A DNA stretch of 43,876 nt from Candidatus Zixiibacteriota bacterium (GTDB lineage: Bacteria; RBG-13-66-14; B26-G2; WVWN01), in contig JAUWLW010000026.1 in NCBI GenBank assembly GCA_030613505.1, positions 1-43,876 on the forward strand, given 5' to 3'. Of the stretch, positions 158 through 15,918 are shown piece after piece. Position 1 is the stretch's first letter. Each line of letters begins with the position of its first letter. A program made the translations under genes and the position numbers. The notes beneath the pieces are model-generated. The model was given only the letters and a program-made list of their open reading frames with translations, had not been told where the DNA came from and searched no databases.

Positions 158-1336
158 ATGGACGGAGAAAGGCGGATGTGGCGGGTGGCGACCCGGGCCG
201 TAATAACGGCCGGCGGGGTCGCGTTTTTTATTTTACTGAGTTGCGGCGAGCCGCTGGCGCCGTTGGAACCCGGGTGGGTCACGGTCGGGGTGTTACCCCT
301 CGAAAGCCGTTCCGGCGTTAATTCTATTTACGCCAGAGGTGGTCCCGTGTGGGCGGTGGCGTACGAGTACGTGTACCCCGGACCAGTGACGCGGGCTAAG
401 ATCATATCGTACGCCGACAGGCAATTCCTCGTAGAATACGAAAGCCCGCCCGAGTACGAATACGCCGAATTAGCGGACATCGCGTTCGTACGTTACGGCG
501 AAAAGGGTTGGGCCGTGGGGGGGAAATCGGAAAATAACGAATGGGGGCCTTATATGTTGAAGTACGATTACGTTTTGGCGTACGACGGGAGAGCCCTGGG
601 ATGGAAAGAGGTGCGGCTGGACGGGTTCCGAGAACGGGCTCTGAGCGCCGTAATGCCGATTAACGATGAGGAAATTTGGGTATTGATAGACGACAATTAT
701 TATTCCGGCGACCACGACGGCCTGTTGGCCAAATATACCGGCGGCGAATTTAAGGTATATAACGAACTGGGGCCCGTAACCGCGGTCTACCCGTATACTA
801 GATACTCGCCTATGACGTTGTACGCCGTATCGTACGCCCAGGGCGGGTACGCCCCGGGCGAGTTGCCCAAGGTTTATATTTCCGCGGACGGCGGGGCCTC
901 GTGGGCTGAAGAAACGTTGCCCGAAGATATAGTGCAAGGCCGGGAGATCAGTAGAGCTTACGCGGGGGGAGGGTTCGGCCCCGACGTATACATTTTGGCC
1001 GAGTGTGGTAACGACGCGTGGGCGGTTATTCGGCGCACCGGCGCTCCCGGCGCCGGGGAATACGAATTGGCCTTTTTGGCTTACGGCGGTCCCTATTTCA
1101 CCACGTTGAATAGTATTGCCTTTAGAAATCCCCACTCGCCCCCGCGGGGCGTCTCGGCCGACGGCGTCGCGGTGGGCCGCGAGACTTCGGTCGTATTCGA
1201 CGAGGGTGGTGTTTATTTGGAGAAATTACCGTACGCGCTGGATTTAAGTAACGCCATATCCTTTGGCGGGAACGGCTTCTTTGCGGTCGGCAAAAACCAG
1301 GCGTTCGGCGGGTACGAGTTGCTCTATCACCCGTGA
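158..1336 (+). CDS. Lipoprotein, beta-propeller-like, paralogue 1 of 3
   Basis: Exported lipoprotein of unknown function, 392 aa. The signal peptide ends in a good lipobox (LLSC, Cys29), followed by CGEP. The body is rich in Tyr, Gly and Trp, with phrases such as GWAVGG and WAVAYEY spaced like the blades of a beta-propeller; this fold is inferred from pattern only. The ATG at 158 is chosen because GGGAGG lies just upstream and because it puts the lipobox Cys at residue 29, as in the next gene. It closely resembles the third gene: both end in AFGGxELLYHP and share FDEGxVYLE. First gene of a four-gene operon. No known function is recognised. Confidence 0.85.
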   Translation: MDGERRMWRVATRAVITAGGVAFFILLSCGEPLAPLEPGWVTVGVLPLESRSGVNSIYARGGPVWAVAYEYVYPGPVTRAKIISYADRQFLVEYESPPEYEYAELADIAFVRYGEKGWAVGGKSENNEWGPYMLKYDYVLAYDGRALGWKEVRLDGFRERALSAVMPINDEEIWVLIDDNYYSGDHDGLLAKYTGGEFKVYNELGPVTAVYPYTRYSPMTLYAVSYAQGGYAPGELPKVYISADGGASWAEETLPEDIVQGREISRAYAGGGFGPDVYILAECGNDAWAVIRRTGAPGAGEYELAFLAYGGPYFTTLNSIAFRNPHSPPRGVSADGVAVGRETSVVFDEGGVYLEKLPYALDLSNAISFGGNGFFAVGKNQAFGGYELLYHP

Positions 1337-1390
1337 GGCGCTTTGATTAACGTGCGAAAAACGCTGTACTCTATGTGCTCAGGAGGCCCT

Positions 1391-2497
1391 ATGGCAGGGA
1401 AGACGCGGTTTCAGGTGAAAGCGACCCGGGCCCTATTGTGGGCCGGCGGGGTCGCGGTTTTTATCTTGCTGAGCTGCGGCGAGGCCGTTTTACCCCAGCC
1501 GACGCGGTGGGTGGAACGCGCGCGGTTCCCCGGTTCAATAAAAAGAATAAACGGCTTAACGGCCGCCCCGGACGGGGCCGTTTACGCAGTAGGAGAAACG
1601 GACGATAGTAAGGCGGTAATATACCGTTACAAAGGGGGTTCGCCAAAGGAAGTATACCGCGGACCGTACGGCTCCAGTAGGTTCGATTCCGTCCGCTGTG
1701 GCGGAGGGCGAATATGGGCCGGAGGGTCGAGAGTAGTGGGTAAAGACTACTTGCCGTACTGCGTCCGGAGTTCGGACGGCGTCAATTGGGAGGAATTCGA
1801 AATCCCGCGGTCCTTAGGTTTTGTAGGTGTAAACCCTTACCCCCGCGCCGACGATTTCGTATGGTTCGGCGGGGGTACGGCCGCCTACCGGGAGCTTTTT
1901 GCGACGTACGACCGGGGCGTGTGGAAAAAGCTTAACGTCCCCTCCGAGGCCGAAGGGTCGGAGTTCGTAGTAACCGAAGGGGGGAGAGCTTACTATTATT
2001 ATTATAAAAACGAGGTACTAACCGTACTAATAAGCGATGACCGCGGCAATACGTGGACCCGGGAGACGGTCGAAGTCGAATATCCTCTTTACGAAATCCG
2101 CAAACCCAAGTATATAAAAATGGCCGCCGCCGGGGAAACGGTATACTTAAAAACCGATTTATACGGAAAAGAGGAAGATTTCAATCTCGTAGGGGTCGTA
2201 GCGCGTGACGAAGCCCCTCCGGGCCGCGGGGGCTACGACGTTGCGTTCGCCGCTCCCCACGGCCCTTACTTCACCGATATTAAGGCTATGGCTTTCCGCT
2301 CGTTTTCGGATGGATACGCGGTAGGCCCTATGACCTCCGTAGCGTTGGAAGACGGTAGGTGGCTTAAAGAGGCCACCCCCGAGTCGTGGAGCCCGATGTT
2401 TCACCTCGTCGCGACGGGGCCCTATTCTTATTGGGCTATTGTGGACAATACCGCGAGCAGTCACGATTATATACTTTACGAGGCGACCTTCGAATGA
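1391..2497 (+). CDS. Lipoprotein, beta-propeller-like, paralogue 2 of 3
   Basis: Exported lipoprotein, 368 aa from the ATG at 1391. That start follows AGGAGG-CCCT, the same context as the first gene (GGAGG-CCCT), and puts the lipobox Cys (FILLSC) at residue 29 in both. An in-frame codon at 1343 would add 16 residues but has no comparable ribosome site. The C-terminal half shares the GPYFT and PPGRGGY phrases with its neighbours but lacks the ELLYHP ending, so it is the most diverged of the three. Its stop overlaps the next start (ATGA), suggesting translational coupling. Function unknown; probably outer-membrane or periplasm anchored. Confidence 0.85.
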   Translation: MAGKTRFQVKATRALLWAGGVAVFILLSCGEAVLPQPTRWVERARFPGSIKRINGLTAAPDGAVYAVGETDDSKAVIYRYKGGSPKEVYRGPYGSSRFDSVRCGGGRIWAGGSRVVGKDYLPYCVRSSDGVNWEEFEIPRSLGFVGVNPYPRADDFVWFGGGTAAYRELFATYDRGVWKKLNVPSEAEGSEFVVTEGGRAYYYYYKNEVLTVLISDDRGNTWTRETVEVEYPLYEIRKPKYIKMAAAGETVYLKTDLYGKEEDFNLVGVVARDEAPPGRGGYDVAFAAPHGPYFTDIKAMAFRSFSDGYAVGPMTSVALEDGRWLKEATPESWSPMFHLVATGPYSYWAIVDNTASSHDYILYEATFE

Positions 2498-3615
2498 GAA
2501 TAGGTAATCGGTTACTAAAACGCCGCAACGTGGGTTTAGTGGCCGTTACGGCCGCCGTTATCGGCGTTATGAATTGCGGCGAGCCGCAGGGGCCGCTCGA
2601 GGGGAGGTGGGTTCACGTAGCCGATTTCCCCGCTGATATCTCATGCGTAAACGCCATCTCGCCGTACTGGTTTGACGAGGTCGGCGTATATGCCGTCGCG
2701 GAACGTAACGGCGCGTACGTGTTAACTAAGTGCTCCCGGCACGGGTTCTCGACCGAGTTCGATATGAACGAACGCTACGACGACGGTTCGCTGGCCGACG
2801 TCGCCACTTACGGCCTTAGCGTTTGGATTTCCGGAGCTAAGGTCTCCGGGAAAATAACGGCGCCTTTTGTTTTAAGAAAACCCAACCTGGGCGAATGGAA
2901 AGAGATACCGGTCCCTTATCGCCCGGGCGCCACCGTGAGCGCCGTCGTTCCCATTAACGAATCGGATTGCTGGTTCCTGATTGACGACCGTTACGGCCGA
3001 GGCACGCACGAGGGGACCTTGGCGAAGTACTCCGGGGGGGGAGTTACGACGTACGAGGGCTTCGGCGACGTAACGATCTTTCGGACCGTGGACCCGGGAA
3101 GGCCGTCGCGGCTATACGCCGTCACATCCGGCGAAGGCGAACCTATAAGGGTCTTTATAACGGCCGACGAGGGCGCGTCGTGGGCGGAGGAGACGCTGCC
3201 GCCCGACGTCGCGCCGGGGCATCATTTGTTGGCCGCGACGGCGGCCGCAACTGCGGGCCCGTATTTATACCTTATAGTAGGCCTCGGCTACGAGGGCGAG
3301 GCGGGCAGATATTGCGCCGTCGTCAAACGCGCCGGCCCGCCCGGGCGCGGGGAGTACGCGCCCGTATTCATAGCGCCGGAGGGGCCCCATTTCCACGGCC
3401 TTGCGAGCCTCGCCTTCTTGCACCCGGGATACCGCGATTACGGCCTCGGCGTGGGCAGCGATACGACGGTCTTGTTCGACGAGGGGAACGTTTATTTGGA
3501 GCGGCTGGCGTACCCGCTCGAGTTCGCTGAGGTAGTCGTATCCGAAACGAGCGGCTTCTTAGCCGTAGGGATGAACGAGGCTTTCGGCGGTTGCGAGTTG
3601 CTCTACCACCCTTAA
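2494..3615 (+). CDS. Lipoprotein, beta-propeller-like, paralogue 3 of 3
   Basis: Exported protein, 373 aa, starting at the ATG that overlaps the previous stop as ATGA. The open frame extends upstream, but that part lies inside the previous gene. The N-terminus is a signal peptide ending VMNC (Cys28), then GEPQGPLEGRW, which aligns with GEPLAPLEPGW of paralogue 1. Asn just before the Cys is unusual for a lipobox, so lipidation is likely but less certain. The body aligns with paralogue 1 almost throughout: SADGGASWAEETLP against TADEGASWAEETLP, and both end in ELLYHP. This points to tandem duplication. Function unknown. Confidence 0.85.
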   Translation: MRIGNRLLKRRNVGLVAVTAAVIGVMNCGEPQGPLEGRWVHVADFPADISCVNAISPYWFDEVGVYAVAERNGAYVLTKCSRHGFSTEFDMNERYDDGSLADVATYGLSVWISGAKVSGKITAPFVLRKPNLGEWKEIPVPYRPGATVSAVVPINESDCWFLIDDRYGRGTHEGTLAKYSGGGVTTYEGFGDVTIFRTVDPGRPSRLYAVTSGEGEPIRVFITADEGASWAEETLPPDVAPGHHLLAATAAATAGPYLYLIVGLGYEGEAGRYCAVVKRAGPPGRGEYAPVFIAPEGPHFHGLASLAFLHPGYRDYGLGVGSDTTVLFDEGNVYLERLAYPLEFAEVVVSETSGFLAVGMNEAFGGCELLYHP

Positions 3616-3628
3616 CGGAGGAAACGCG

Positions 3629-4297
3629 ATGAGGTTACTTACCGTAGTCCTACTTTGTATGCCGACCCTCGCGGCGGCGGCCGACCTCTCGTTCACCGCC
3701 GGCCTCTTCCGCTTCAACGCCACCGATTACTACTACCCCAACTTCTACCTCGACGCCGGCTACCGCGGCGAGATAACGTACGCCGTGGGCGACGTCAACC
3801 GCCACCTCTTCCGCCTCCAAATCTACGGCTACCCGGGCGACGACAACGGCTTCGAACCGATATTGGAGTACGGGTATAATCGGAAGATTTCGCTCGGTGG
3901 CTGGGAGCTCGTCGCCAGGCCGGTCGGCGGCCTGGGCGTCGTCAAGCTGCAATACCCGGCGCCGTATTACCCAGTGGTAACGCACCAATACTTACCGTGG
4001 CTCCGGCTCGGTTACGACGCCTCGATAGGCCACAAACTAGCAGGGCCTATTTTCGTGCGCGGCGGCGACCGCGGCCGCCTCCTCTACTACCTCTCGGATA
4101 CGTACGCGGTGTTCAACGATGATAAGACGGCTTGGCAGAACGCGCCCTACGGCGAAGTCGAGATAGCCGTCGCGCCGGGTTGGAAGTTGCTCGGCCGCGG
4201 CGGCCTGGAAATCGGCGGCTATTATAACGACGTTTTCTATCCGCTCGAGAAAAAGCTCCGCCCCTTCGGCGAGGCGGGGGTGGCATGGTCGTTCTAA
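3629..4297 (+). CDS. Small exported beta-barrel-like protein
   Basis: 222 aa with an AGGA/GGAGG ribosome site and a clear signal peptide cut near AAAA-DLSF. The mature part has alternating aromatic and polar residues (YYYPNFYLDAGYRG, LFRLQIYGYPG) and ends in AWSF. Short beta strands and a terminal Phe are typical of outer-membrane barrels, so an outer-membrane location is inferred. It sits 13 nt after the third lipoprotein gene and before the operon terminator, so it may work with the three lipoproteins at the cell surface. No family is recognised. Confidence 0.75.
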   Translation: MRLLTVVLLCMPTLAAAADLSFTAGLFRFNATDYYYPNFYLDAGYRGEITYAVGDVNRHLFRLQIYGYPGDDNGFEPILEYGYNRKISLGGWELVARPVGGLGVVKLQYPAPYYPVVTHQYLPWLRLGYDASIGHKLAGPIFVRGGDRGRLLYYLSDTYAVFNDDKTAWQNAPYGEVEIAVAPGWKLLGRGGLEIGGYYNDVFYPLEKKLRPFGEAGVAWSF

Positions 4298-8789: not shown

Positions 8790-9734
8790 TTAGTTAAACA
8801 ACGCCCTCACCCGGCCGAGGGAGCAGGGCCAAACCGCGGGGTTCGCCGCACGGAAATATTGAACGCGGTTATTAGCCGTATCCGCAACGTAAATACGCTG
8901 GCTTTTTGAAATAGCCAAGCCTTCCGGGTAAACGAACTTTCCATTGCCGCTACCATATCCACCAAACGACCCGAGGTGTTTTCCTGTTAGCGCGAAATAG
9001 TGTACTAAGGACCGGCCGTTCTCGGAAACGAAAACTTTTTCCTTTATACCTACGTCCCACGTTTCACTAAGGACCCCAACGCCTATATGGCGCAGGAAAC
9101 CTCCGGACGCGGTAAAGACCGATACCCGGTTGTTCGGTGATGCGTCAGCAACATAAACTTCGCCGTTTGGAGCGATACCTATCCCCTGGGGCGCGGAGAA
9201 CTGCCCGTTACCGGACCCTTTTGAACCCCACTTCCCCAGGAACGACCCTGTTGCCGTGAAGTACTGAACACGGTAGCCCCATTCAACAACGTAGACATTA
9301 CCATTTGAAGCGATGGCTACATCCCGGGGACTTTCAAACTGCCCATTTCCAGAACCGGGCGAGCCCCATTTGCCGAGGAACGAACCCGTCGGCGTGAAGT
9401 ATTGGATGCGGTCGTTCCCGCTATCCGTAACGTACACGTTGCCGTTTGGGGCGACGGCAACACTTGTGGGGTGCCAGAATTGGCCGTTGCCCGAACCGAA
9501 GGCACCCCATTTACCTAAGAACGAACCAGTTGCGTTGAAGTACTGGATACGGTCGTTCCCACCATCCGCTACGTAAATGTTGGCATTCGGGGAAATAGCA
9601 ATCCCTGGAGGCCCATCGAATTGCCCGTTGCCCGAACCGAAGCCACCCCATTTGCCTTCGTAAACGTAAGTACAACCTAAAACGGCTGCCGCGACCGCAG
9701 ACGCTCCCATTACGTAAAACGTTATCCTTCTCAT
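8790..9734 (-). CDS. Lipoprotein made of NHL repeats with C-terminal SLGRVRALF motif
   Basis: 314 aa exported protein. The signal peptide ends in VLGC (Cys21), a good lipobox. The rest is about six NHL-type beta-propeller repeats of roughly 40-45 residues, with the pattern KWGxxGSGNGQF...P...A...NGNVYVxDxGNxRxQYF. NHL propellers bind proteins or sugars; no partner can be named. The last residues read AVWPCSLGRVRALFN, matching the end of the protein at 15058-15885 (AVAPASLGKVKALFR). The last few residues lie outside the propeller repeats, so they may be a tag. The ATG at 9734 has AAGGAG 6-7 nt upstream. Codon use is less GC-rich than in the core genes. Confidence 0.88.
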   Translation of the reverse strand: MRRITFYVMGASAVAAAVLGCTYVYEGKWGGFGSGNGQFDGPPGIAISPNANIYVADGGNDRIQYFNATGSFLGKWGAFGSGNGQFWHPTSVAVAPNGNVYVTDSGNDRIQYFTPTGSFLGKWGSPGSGNGQFESPRDVAIASNGNVYVVEWGYRVQYFTATGSFLGKWGSKGSGNGQFSAPQGIGIAPNGEVYVADASPNNRVSVFTASGGFLRHIGVGVLSETWDVGIKEKVFVSENGRSLVHYFALTGKHLGSFGGYGSGNGKFVYPEGLAISKSQRIYVADTANNRVQYFRAANPAVWPCSLGRVRALFN

Positions 9735-12019: not shown

Positions 12020-12106
12020 CCTCTTAATGGGCGGGCCCCCCCCCCCCCCCCCCCGGCCCCCCCGCCCCCCCCCCCCGCCCCCGCCGTGTCAACCTCTTAA
12101 TGGGCG
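12011..12106. repeat. 23-bp direct repeat flanking a C-homopolymer tract
   Basis: The same 23 bases, beginning CCGTGTCAACCTC, occur at 12011-12033 and 12084-12106. Between them is an almost pure C stretch broken by a few G. The left copy carries the -35 box of the trxA promoter. The tract length may be unreliable because assemblies handle homopolymers poorly. Confidence 0.85.
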
Positions 12107-12201
12107 CCCCCCCTCCCGCCCCGCCGTTACAACTTGGGTTGAGGGCGCCCCGGCCGTATGTTAAACTGCGCCGGTTTAATTACCCCAAGGATATCAACCA
12201 G

Positions 12202-14418
12202 TTGCGTCGCTTAAGAGAATTGAAAGCTTTCGTATCGCGCAGGCCCGCGCTGGCCGCGGCCGTCGTTTTGGCGGTCCTGTACGTCGTCGTCGTCTCGGTA
12301 AAATTGTACCACTGGGCACCCGGCGCGTACTTCACCTCGGACCCCGCTTTCCGCTTCCGCTACATGCAGACGTTCGCGGCCGGCGAAACGGTCCCGGCGC
12401 TGGACCGCGCCGCGCAGTGGCCGGAGGGCGTCGACACCGCGCGGTCCTTCTTCCTCACCCAGGACGCCTTCGTCGGCCTCTCGTACCGGCTGCTGGGGCC
12501 GCTGGTGCGCGGCGTCCCCCCCTTAAATTTCCTCCGGTGGCACGTCTCGCTCTGGAGCAGCCTTACGCTCTTCGTCGTATATTTATGGGCGCGGCGCGCG
12601 TTCGGCTCGCGGCGGGGGGCGCTGCTCGCGGCGCTGGTGTACGCCCTCGCTTTACCCATATACTTGCGGACGTGCGGGAATTACCTCCGCGAGGACTTCG
12701 TCCTCCCCGTATTATTTTTCGCGCTGTACTGCCAGGCGAGGGTAGTGCAGGGAGGGGGATGGCGCTGGTTCGCCGGCGCCGCGGCGGCCTTCGCGCTCGC
12801 CCTGGTGAGCTGGCACGCGTCGTCTTTCCTTTATTTCTTCGCGACGCTGCCGCTGGCCGCGGCCGCGCTGGCATCCAACGAGACGAAGAACGTAGGCCGG
12901 GGCGCGGCCGCGCTGGTAGTCGCCGCGGCCGTCGCGTACCTGCACCCGGCGTTGCGCGAGAAGGTCTTCCTGGCGTCGCCGTCCTTCGCGCTCGCCGTCG
13001 CGGCGACCGCGGGCGCGCTGGTCGCGTGGCGGTGGCGGCTGAAATGGTGGCAGCGGGTCGCCGCGCTCGGTATATTCTTCGCCGCCGCCTACGGCCTGGC
13101 GCGACCCTTCGCGGCCGCGGCCGAGTACTCCCACATCTACACGATGATATTTTACAAAATCCGGTACCTGGGGATTAAACCGGCCGACCCGACTGCGCTG
13201 CCGCTCGCCGCGCGCGAGATATGGACCGGCCCGGCGGACTCGCCGTCGCTCGCGGCCGCGGCCGTACTCTTGGGGCCGCCGCTCGTCGTCGCCGGGGCGC
13301 CGCTCGTCCGGAATTTCAAAAAATTTGCCCGCGGCTTCGCGACGCCGGCCGGCTATCTCGGCGCCGCGACGTTGGCCTTCTTCGTCGTCTTCGGCCTGCT
13401 CTACGCCGGCTACACCCGCTTCAGCGTCGTCTTCATCTTCTTCGTCGCCGTCTTCGCCGCCGGCTACGGCGGCCTGGTGAGGAATCGCCGCGCGCTCGCC
13501 TGGCTGCTGATACCCGCCGTAATCGTTCCGCTCGAGGCGGCTAAGGCGTTCCGCTACGAGTATCGGCCCTGGCCGTGGACGTCGCTCCTAAAGGCCGCGG
13601 CCGAATCGGAGAGCGGCTACGCCACCAACGTCGGCGACGAGGAGTGGCGCCTTATAAGGTGGTTCGGCAATTTACCCGACCGCGCCGAAACCGCGGCCCT
13701 CGCGCCCATCGCCGCGTCGGCGACGCTCTTGACGTACGCCGGCACGCCCATCGTCCTCCACCCCATCTACGAGGCGCCGGGGATGCGCGCCAAGGTCGAC
13801 GAATGCTGGCGGGCAATATTCGAGGAAGAGGAGGACTTCTACCGCGTGTGCGAGAAGTACGACGTGACGTACGTGGCGTACCACGCCGCCTTCGTCATGA
13901 ACCGTGGCCCCGCCTCCATCCGCTACACCCGCGCCGTAACCGAAGTCCCCGTTGATTCCTGCGCGTACCTGATGCAATTCGAGCCGGCGAAACTCGAGCA
14001 CTTCACGCCCGTCTTCGAGACCGTATCGTGGCGGGTCTTCCTCGTCGGCGTACCCGGCCGCGAGGCGCCGGGGCGCGGGCCGCCGTCGCCGCTGTTCACC
14101 GGGCCGGCCGCGGCCGGCGGCTTCTACGACGAAAACTTTACCGGCCGCGCGTACGCCGTCGTCGACGACGCGCTGGCGTACTACAACGACGGCGTCGAGC
14201 TGTACGACCGTAGGGAATTCGCCGCCGCCCGGGCCAAGTTCGTACCGGCGCTCGAGCTTTGTCCGCGGTTGGCCGGCGTTTGGGACGCGCTGGCCTGGCT
14301 CGAGCTCCAGGACGGCAACGCCCGCGCAGCGGCCTACGCCGCCGAACAGGCCCTCGCGCTCGACCCCTACGACGACGCCGCGCTGGAGGCGCTCGCAATG
14401 CTGCGAGGCGAACGATAA
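12202..14418 (+). CDS. STT3-like GT-C membrane glycosyltransferase with TPR tail
   Basis: About 738 aa. Some ten or more membrane segments follow a short basic N-terminus. The first outside loop has SDPAFRFRYMQTF followed by AAQWPEG, like the acidic loop and the xxPEG phrase of STT3 oligosaccharyltransferases; GNYLREDF may be the second acidic motif. After the membrane part comes a soluble domain, and the last 60 residues (YYNDGVELYDRREFAAARAKF onward) are a TPR pair. Inferred role: moving a glycan from a polyprenyl carrier on the outer face of the membrane. I prefer the TTG at 12202, with AAGGA 10 nt upstream; an ATG at 12100 lies inside the C-rich repeat and has no ribosome site. It overlaps the next gene by one base (TAATG). 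Confidence 0.7.
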   Translation: MRRLRELKAFVSRRPALAAAVVLAVLYVVVVSVKLYHWAPGAYFTSDPAFRFRYMQTFAAGETVPALDRAAQWPEGVDTARSFFLTQDAFVGLSYRLLGPLVRGVPPLNFLRWHVSLWSSLTLFVVYLWARRAFGSRRGALLAALVYALALPIYLRTCGNYLREDFVLPVLFFALYCQARVVQGGGWRWFAGAAAAFALALVSWHASSFLYFFATLPLAAAALASNETKNVGRGAAALVVAAAVAYLHPALREKVFLASPSFALAVAATAGALVAWRWRLKWWQRVAALGIFFAAAYGLARPFAAAAEYSHIYTMIFYKIRYLGIKPADPTALPLAAREIWTGPADSPSLAAAAVLLGPPLVVAGAPLVRNFKKFARGFATPAGYLGAATLAFFVVFGLLYAGYTRFSVVFIFFVAVFAAGYGGLVRNRRALAWLLIPAVIVPLEAAKAFRYEYRPWPWTSLLKAAAESESGYATNVGDEEWRLIRWFGNLPDRAETAALAPIAASATLLTYAGTPIVLHPIYEAPGMRAKVDECWRAIFEEEEDFYRVCEKYDVTYVAYHAAFVMNRGPASIRYTRAVTEVPVDSCAYLMQFEPAKLEHFTPVFETVSWRVFLVGVPGREAPGRGPPSPLFTGPAAAGGFYDENFTGRAYAVVDDALAYYNDGVELYDRREFAAARAKFVPALELCPRLAGVWDALAWLELQDGNARAAAYAAEQALALDPYDDAALEALAMLRGER

Positions 14419-15057: not shown

Positions 15058-15885
15058 TTACCGGAAAAGCGCTTTGACCTTTCCCAACGACGCCGGCGCG
15101 ACGGCGGTAGCGCCGCCGAGGTCGATCTGGTAGCACCACCCGTGGTCCGGGGCGGTTTTAATAAAACGCCAATAAGTAGTCCCGTAGGAAGGCGGGTAGC
15201 CCGGGCCGCACGTCGCGTCCTTGTCCGAATACATCACGGGAAAAGTCGAAACTAACGAACCTGCCCCGGTGTAAATGTAGGCGGCGGCTGTGCTACCGTA
15301 ACCCCCTTCGACTATTATATATTGACCGTGGCCGCCGTTAAAATACTCCGTAGCAGCGCTCAAAATACCTTCTACCGCGAACGAATTCACTATACTCCAC
15401 GCCCTCGTCATGCGATAGACGACGTGGTTCAGGCCGACGTAAATACACCGCCCACCGGGTATAAAAGCGTACTCGTCAAAGTACGGTTCGCGTTCGATTG
15501 ACTCTACCAAGAAGCCCGTCGACGTAGAGTACGTAAGAAGATAACCGAACGTGTCAAACGGGATAGAAACGTATCCCGTACCGAATACGCTGTGGTCCGC
15601 TCCGGTAGGTAAAATCCCAGGGCCAAACGGGAGATAACCGAGTCCGGTCCAGCCGGCCTTCGTCCCGTCCGGCGTGTACGCGATCAGGTAAAAGTTTTCG
15701 CCGTAATCGTACGTTACTATATACACGTAATCCGCGCCCCGGTACACGCCCACCGTCATTTCGGGAGGGTAATATACGTCCACTCTGAAGGAACTTATCA
15801 CCGACCCCACCTCGCCGTAAGCGGGCAGGGCCGTGACGGCCAACGCCGCCCCGACGGTTATTAACCTCATTAACCTCTTACCCAT
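15058..15885 (-). CDS. Secreted beta-rich protein with C-terminal SLGKVKALF motif
   Basis: 275 aa with a signal peptide (cleavage near AYG-EVGS) and no lipobox. The mature part is rich in Tyr, Gly and Thr with weak repeats (YVYIVTYDYG, FGYLLTYST, GQYIIVEGGYG), suggesting a beta-propeller or sandwich; no family is recognised. It ends in AVAPASLGKVKALFR, which matches the end of the NHL lipoprotein at 8790-9734. The ATG at 15885 has AGGAGG 8 nt upstream, while a GTG one codon earlier is too close to it. A promoter is at 15919-15947 and a terminator at 15010-15037, so it is a single-gene unit. Confidence 0.8.
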   Translation of the reverse strand: MGKRLMRLITVGAALAVTALPAYGEVGSVISSFRVDVYYPPEMTVGVYRGADYVYIVTYDYGENFYLIAYTPDGTKAGWTGLGYLPFGPGILPTGADHSVFGTGYVSIPFDTFGYLLTYSTSTGFLVESIEREPYFDEYAFIPGGRCIYVGLNHVVYRMTRAWSIVNSFAVEGILSAATEYFNGGHGQYIIVEGGYGSTAAAYIYTGAGSLVSTFPVMYSDKDATCGPGYPPSYGTTYWRFIKTAPDHGWCYQIDLGGATAVAPASLGKVKALFR

Positions 15886-15918
15886 CACAATAACCTCCTC
15901 TTTTTTACCTCTATTCTA

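Follow-up and report, generated by a model that had tools for sequence, protein, structure and literature searches.

The window, by which we mean the whole stretch of 43,876 nucleotides analysed here, encodes on its reverse strand two exported proteins that finish in closely similar tails (Table 1). Both tails were read directly at their stop codons, as the initial annotation had claimed, and AVAPASLGKVKALFR, at the end of a secreted beta-propeller protein, is identical in 10 of 15 residues to AVWPCSLGRVRALFN, at the end of an NHL-repeat propeller; BLASTP aligns exactly these 15 residues, the sole meaningful match between the two proteins. The two had been called otherwise unrelated, which is true of their sequences but not of their folds, both being beta-propellers in AlphaFold2 models. 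Two details of the earlier description are amended. The first tail had been placed at 15061-15108, but 15 residues take up 45 nucleotides and that end lies one codon too far. The label 'NHL lipoprotein' for the protein at 8790-9734 is doubtful, as its possible lipobox, VLGC, is not conserved among paralogues and the cysteine corresponds to W-G or something similar in most of them. Elsewhere in the window, a long run of C with few other bases (about 12035-12085), upstream of an ORF at 12100-14418, is a possible assembly artefact or slippage site.

Table 1. Features of the tagged proteins in the window, and of related loci elsewhere in the genome
Feature	Position	Strand	Evidence or remark
Tag AVAPASLGKVKALFR of the secreted propeller protein	15061..15105	-	Direct read; genome-wide motif
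Core SLGKVKALFR of this tag	15061-15090	-	
Stop codon after this tag	15058-15060	-	
Tag AVWPCSLGRVRALFN of the NHL propeller protein	8793..8837	-	Direct read; AlphaFold2
Core SLGRVRALFN of this tag	8793-8822	-	
Stop codon after this tag	8790-8792	-	
Secreted beta-propeller protein, 276 aa	15058..15888	-	ORF, 24 paralogues aligned, AlphaFold2, Foldseek
Its Sec signal peptide-like residues 1-25	about 15814-15888	-	
NHL-repeat beta-propeller protein, 314 aa	8790..9734	-	PF01436, E 5.8e-35
Its signal peptide	about 9675-9734	-	
sprA of the window's genome	L074:5811-11672; from C76:35811		Adjoins two tagged NHL genes
Two tagged NHL genes beside sprA	C76:33421-35668	opposite to sprA	Upstream of sprA
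TGA-containing tagged paralogues	L055:8019-13243 (G000:C56 about 28.0-33.2 kb), L032:7353-8003, L046:3862-4485		

AlphaFold2 models of both proteins were built on paralogue alignments, that of the NHL protein comprising 30 sequences, tagged or variant-tagged. The secreted propeller protein has a mean pLDDT of 85, with about 90 in the domain and less than 50 over residues 263-276, and a Foldseek search with this model returned propellers, among them the NHL domain 1q7f and the glutaminyl cyclase 3nol. The NHL protein has a mean pLDDT of 91.6; its propeller reaches 95-99, the last two blocks fall to 56 and 48, and the final 3 residues lie below 50. In both window proteins the tag is thus modelled as disordered and outside the folded domain. 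The models show no secondary structure in either tail, helix included, and no Ig-like C-terminal domain of the kind that defines the type A signals of the type IX secretion system (T9SS) in either protein. An amphipathic helical tail was also considered and found no support, the hydrophobic moment being not raised at 100 degrees and peaking, with a modest z, near 160-180 degrees.

The window is contig C70 of a genome of 2.86 Mb from the same phylum as Candidatus Coatesbacteria RBG_13_66_14; the assignment follows from SprA coordinates that coincide in G020 (RBG_13_66_14) and G008 and so identify the two as one genome. A strict, degenerate DNA pattern, roughly [ST]-[LF]-G-[RK]-[VIL]-[KR]-[AS]-x-[FY]-x-stop, gave 114 matches genome-wide as against none in a reversed control, and a looser pattern gave 135. 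When a stop was no longer required, 116 copies were found, 114 of them directly before a stop; the remaining copies lie 46 residues short of the end of a called protein and a few residues from a stop, respectively. The shared occurrence of the tail is far beyond chance. Its consensus reads V-x-P-[TA]-S-[LF]-G-[RK]-[VI]-K-A-L-[FY]-[RK]-stop, and its profile, numbered from the C-terminus, V(-14) x P(-12) [AT] S(-10) [LVF] G(-8) [RK] [VI] [KR] A(-4) L(-3) [FY](-2) [RK].

The proteins that carry the tag were drawn from 883 kb taken around its matches, a non-random part of the genome in which 816 distinct genes were called, 124 of them for tag-bearing proteins. Stripped of their final 16 residues, these 124 fall into 15 families, with clusters of 73 (a loose one, of propellers), 22 and 10 and several small ones. 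NHL propellers account for 31 of the 99 tagged proteins scanned, and the other passengers include a cupredoxin and an InhA-like MAM protein. With 73 members in one loose propeller cluster, the tail could be taken for the conserved end of a single amplified family that spread by duplication. Yet at least 14 further families carry it, it lies outside the fold in both AlphaFold2 models, and in other phyla a sister form of the tail, described below, ends CBM96/DNRLRE, Laminin-G-like, DUF4350 and other proteins. Since unrelated passengers share the tail, we rejected amplification of one family, the least credible of the explanations considered.

A heuristic search found a signal peptide and no later transmembrane helix in 98 of the 124 tagged proteins. 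A further 25 lack a visible signal peptide, and most of these do not serve as counter-examples. Twelve are interrupted by an in-frame TGA, ahead of which the same frame encodes a signal peptide; five start where a contig ends; and in three a plain signal peptide is present but failed the charge rule of the heuristic. In the other five the absence is unexplained. The tagged proteins thus bear the Sec signal peptide that is required of type A T9SS substrates. The initial annotation expected the tail on many proteins with signal peptides and invariably at their extreme end, an expectation strongly borne out here as well as across several further phyla. Restriction to two proteins, or an equal frequency inside proteins and on cytoplasmic ones, is excluded by the number of copies, by their nearly invariant terminal position and by the signal peptides of nearly all tagged proteins that are not truncated.

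Of 260 exported proteins without a strict lipobox 98 carry the tag, but none of the 18 with one does (Fisher p 5e-4). It does not strictly exclude a lipid anchor, because three tandem lipoproteins (L088:4524-6355, minus strand) carry degenerate tails, SLGKVLATYY, SLGKVLALFR and TLGSVLAVFYTI; these are the likeliest cases of a tag-like tail combined with a lipobox. The window itself encodes, at 158-3615 on the plus strand, three tandem lipoprotein-like proteins of similar length that are untagged, two of them terminating in ELLYHP.

The in-frame TGA codons form a subject of their own. In eight tagged secreted paralogues (Table 1) its site is conserved: it lies about 38 codons into the gene, usually as GC-[TGA]-G, and in paralogues that lack the TGA the residue there is G, S or A. 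A hairpin follows about 16-18 nucleotides downstream in several copies, and a tRNA-Sec gene is predicted at G000:C62:50539-50632 (66.7 bits against a gathering score of 47). TGA is also a normal stop in this genome, terminating 8 of the 124 tagged genes. Because of the conserved in-frame TGA, the hairpins and the tRNA-Sec gene, the small TGA-containing tagged proteins look, at the level of sequence, like an undescribed family of secreted selenoproteins. Paralogues at L061:17239-17991 and L047:5573-6316 (both minus strand) have an in-frame TGA after CPG or CVG, followed by a tagged C-terminal part, and further L047 copies terminate at the same CPG; these may be a second such family. In an NHL protein at L034:2166-3119, TGA replaces the tryptophan of a repeat (GK[TGA]GSFG), a single case that may be a nonsense mutation or an error.

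Short conserved tails at the very end of many exported proteins are also the hallmark of PEP-CTERM, GlyGly-CTERM, MYXO-CTERM and LPXTG proteins. Those tails combine a signature motif with a hydrophobic helix and basic residues at the end, and are cut by an intramembrane enzyme or a sortase, whereas the tag has no hydrophobic helix. The initial annotation had drawn this distinction for PEP-CTERM and LPXTG, and the consensus tail, with no hydrophobic stretch, upholds it. No Pfam or NCBIfam model was found to cover the tail, in the form seen in the window or in its sister form, and no paper describing the tail or its motif strings was found in the open-licence literature. A peptide so short and C-terminal, and exposed if the predicted disorder is correct, would resemble a degron, and the tail might protect or mature the protein, for instance as a tag for quality control or for a periplasmic protease. 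A defined pattern that is encoded in the genes of more than 100 exported proteins and conserved across phyla would, however, be odd for degradation, and we regard a role of this kind as very unlikely.

The distribution of the tag was traced in 14 genomes of the phylum. Four genomes of the same genus, that of the window included, hold 95-136 copies each, relatives of the same order or class 2-18, and members of family f5 only 0-2. Exported proteins of f5 end instead in TWGQIKADFE, TWGQIKAAF, TWGRIKADF or SWGTIKTEF, which define a sister form (the W-form), [ST]-W-G-x-I-K-A-x-F-stop, likewise terminal on signal-peptide proteins. A scan of 84,980 species for the W-form with F before the stop matched at least 118 stretches, so that the phyla given here are a minimum; the named records among the matches listed fall mostly in Coatesbacteria, Fermentibacterota (Aegiribacteria, Sabulitectum), Latescibacterota, Krumholzibacteriota, Eisenbacteria and Poribacteria, with a few in Rhodothermia, and those outside the main phyla are scattered and lie in tiny ORFs. 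Among the matches listed, 79 of 87 complete W-tailed ORFs of at least 100 aa start with a hydrophobic, signal-like segment. Strict W-tails number up to 27 per genome, as in Coatesbacteria RBG_13_66_14, and 10 in Krumholzibacteriota OFTM315. In Rhodothermia and relatives (L166, L174, L181, L213) one orthologous secreted protein per genome ends in RRTWGSIKAMF amid conserved neighbours, and there the tag may be a single-protein trait. A contig recorded as Syntrophaceae (L175), from a 1.6 Mb MAG without SprA, is probably mis-binned; its tagged protein clusters with those of Fermentibacterota.

The machinery that inserts outer-membrane beta-barrels, BAM, recognises C-terminal peptides ending in F. 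The tag resembles this beta-signal in its C-terminal position and in an aromatic residue that is last or last but one, and the W-form, which often ends in F, also alternates in hydrophobicity with a beta period, its moment being maximal at 160-180 degrees. A tail that mimicked the beta-signal could draw soluble proteins to the outer membrane. The form in the window nevertheless has a residue after its F or Y, the passengers are propellers, cupredoxins and similar soluble domains and not barrels, and a beta-signal includes no strictly conserved [ST]-[LW]-G or K. Untagged barrel-like proteins ending in F, such as that at 3629-4297 in the window, exist alongside the tagged ones. Mimicry of the beta-signal is, in our judgement, improbable, if somewhat less so than a protease tag. 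By the tests made, the tail belongs among C-terminal sorting tags and is neither a type A T9SS domain, a CTERM or LPXTG tail, nor the beta-signal of a barrel.

The T9SS is the known system that lies closest. SprA, the translocon on which T9SS substrates of any type depend, is present throughout the phylum sample: PF14349 detects it in 11 of the 14 genomes, and a profile built from three Coatesbacteria SprA proteins, which matches the solved Flavobacterium johnsoniae SprA (6h3i) at 3.9e-47, detects it in the remaining three. Of 40 genomes reached through W-tail loci, 35 were judged credible and five represent tiny ORFs without signal peptide; among the matches listed, SprA occurs in 34 of the 35, with a 1.6 Mb MAG as the exception; of the five it occurs in one, from WOR-3. 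The sprA gene of the window's own genome adjoins tagged genes (Table 1), and downstream of it lie two MotA/ExbB and two ExbD genes (L074:5811-14261, G000:C76), a possible energising module for the T9SS. PorV (PF19572) was matched, often weakly, in 12 of the 14 genomes of the phylum, with no match in that of the window.

The initial annotation had also called for one processing or transport family co-occurring with the tag. SprA answers to this in so far as it accompanies the tag in almost every genome that bears it; many genomes with SprA are untagged, however, and no partner-like neighbour recurs near tags across phyla, the recurrent untagged clusters there being neighbourhoods common to orthologous loci. 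In Latescibacterota, SprA is nearly universal (60 of 64 genomes) while the W-tag is confined to 21 of the 64, a block of genomes (G054-G092) having the T9SS without the tag, and SprA was accordingly set aside as a discriminating partner. Because the T9SS is wider than the tag in this phylum, the co-occurrence of the two may reflect only shared ancestry.

The type A C-terminal domain (CTD) of the T9SS (Por_Secre_tail, PF18962 / TIGR04183) resembles the tag in several respects: it is C-terminal on unrelated, Sec-exported passengers of FCB-group bacteria with SprA, and a lysine and hydrophobic residues close to the terminus are important in both. It is, on the other hand, an Ig-like domain of about 75 residues with motifs A-E, whereas the tag comprises 10-14 residues and no folded domain. 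Classical tails matching PF18962 number 20-58 per genome and sit on other proteins, none of those checked being tagged as well; of 97 untagged exported proteins 7 matched PF18962, which is absent from the family listing of 99 tagged ones. Type B (TIGR04131) and type C CTDs, also T9SS-dependent, are about 100 residues long and contain several conserved motifs. Those of type B probably escape cleavage (PMC10202324) and use PorP/SprF-like shuttles, often encoded by neighbouring genes (PMC12618676), whereas the tag has no recurring neighbour. A short T9SS signal is conceivable, because type A CTDs need their last 13 residues and the last 22 residues of HBP35 are enough to secrete GFP (PMC10202324).

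This coexistence of two clearly different C-terminal signals within the same genomes can be read in another way, namely that tagged proteins follow a second route, independent of the T9SS, through a dedicated receptor, which might be a protein of the outer membrane or surface layer or a different export machine, the T9SS being left to the CTD proteins. The difference in size between the two groups, with a median of 269 aa for tagged and 549 aa for CTD-like proteins, fits such a division, as do the Latescibacterota genomes that have the T9SS and no tag. No neighbour gene recurs near the tags, however, no candidate receptor was found, and SprA is present in every tag-bearing lineage examined. 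We consider this the most serious competitor, though a tentative one; on its terms a helix-free peptide of 10-14 residues and a receptor outside the T9SS would constitute a route of FCB-group candidate phyla by which up to 100 or more proteins per genome reach the surface or the outside.

The reading that we favour, at about even odds in our own estimation, is that the tail is a C-terminal sorting tag of an undescribed kind, which acts once Sec has exported the protein, with the T9SS as its likeliest reader. A tagged protein would be exported through Sec and lose its N-terminal signal peptide; its domain would fold, leaving the last 10-14 residues as a flexible appendage; and a receptor at the outer membrane would bind this appendage through the conserved [ST]-[LW]-G-x-[VI]-K-A-x-F and either send the protein across the outer membrane or retain it at the surface, presumably without cleavage of the tag. 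The receptor would most likely be the T9SS, in the form of the SprA translocon with a PorV- or SprF-like shuttle, and the tag would replace the function of the last residues of the classical C-terminal domain. We rank the T9SS first among possible readers, not securely. Of the undescribed export or anchoring system proposed at the outset, the terminal tail shared by exported proteins is directly observed, and the exporting or anchoring itself is what we infer.

C-terminal sorting tags have repeatedly exposed entire export systems. With the one described here, sequence alone is enough to list much of what is exported or displayed at the surface in Coatesbacteria, Fermentibacterota and some of the Latescibacterota. 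If the T9SS reads it, a T9SS signal can consist of about a dozen residues and need not be a folded domain, which would bear on what the translocon recognises in the CTD. Otherwise a new outer-membrane or anchoring machine is to be found. The split within Latescibacterota, between genomes with the tag and genomes without it, allows candidate readers to be tested directly.
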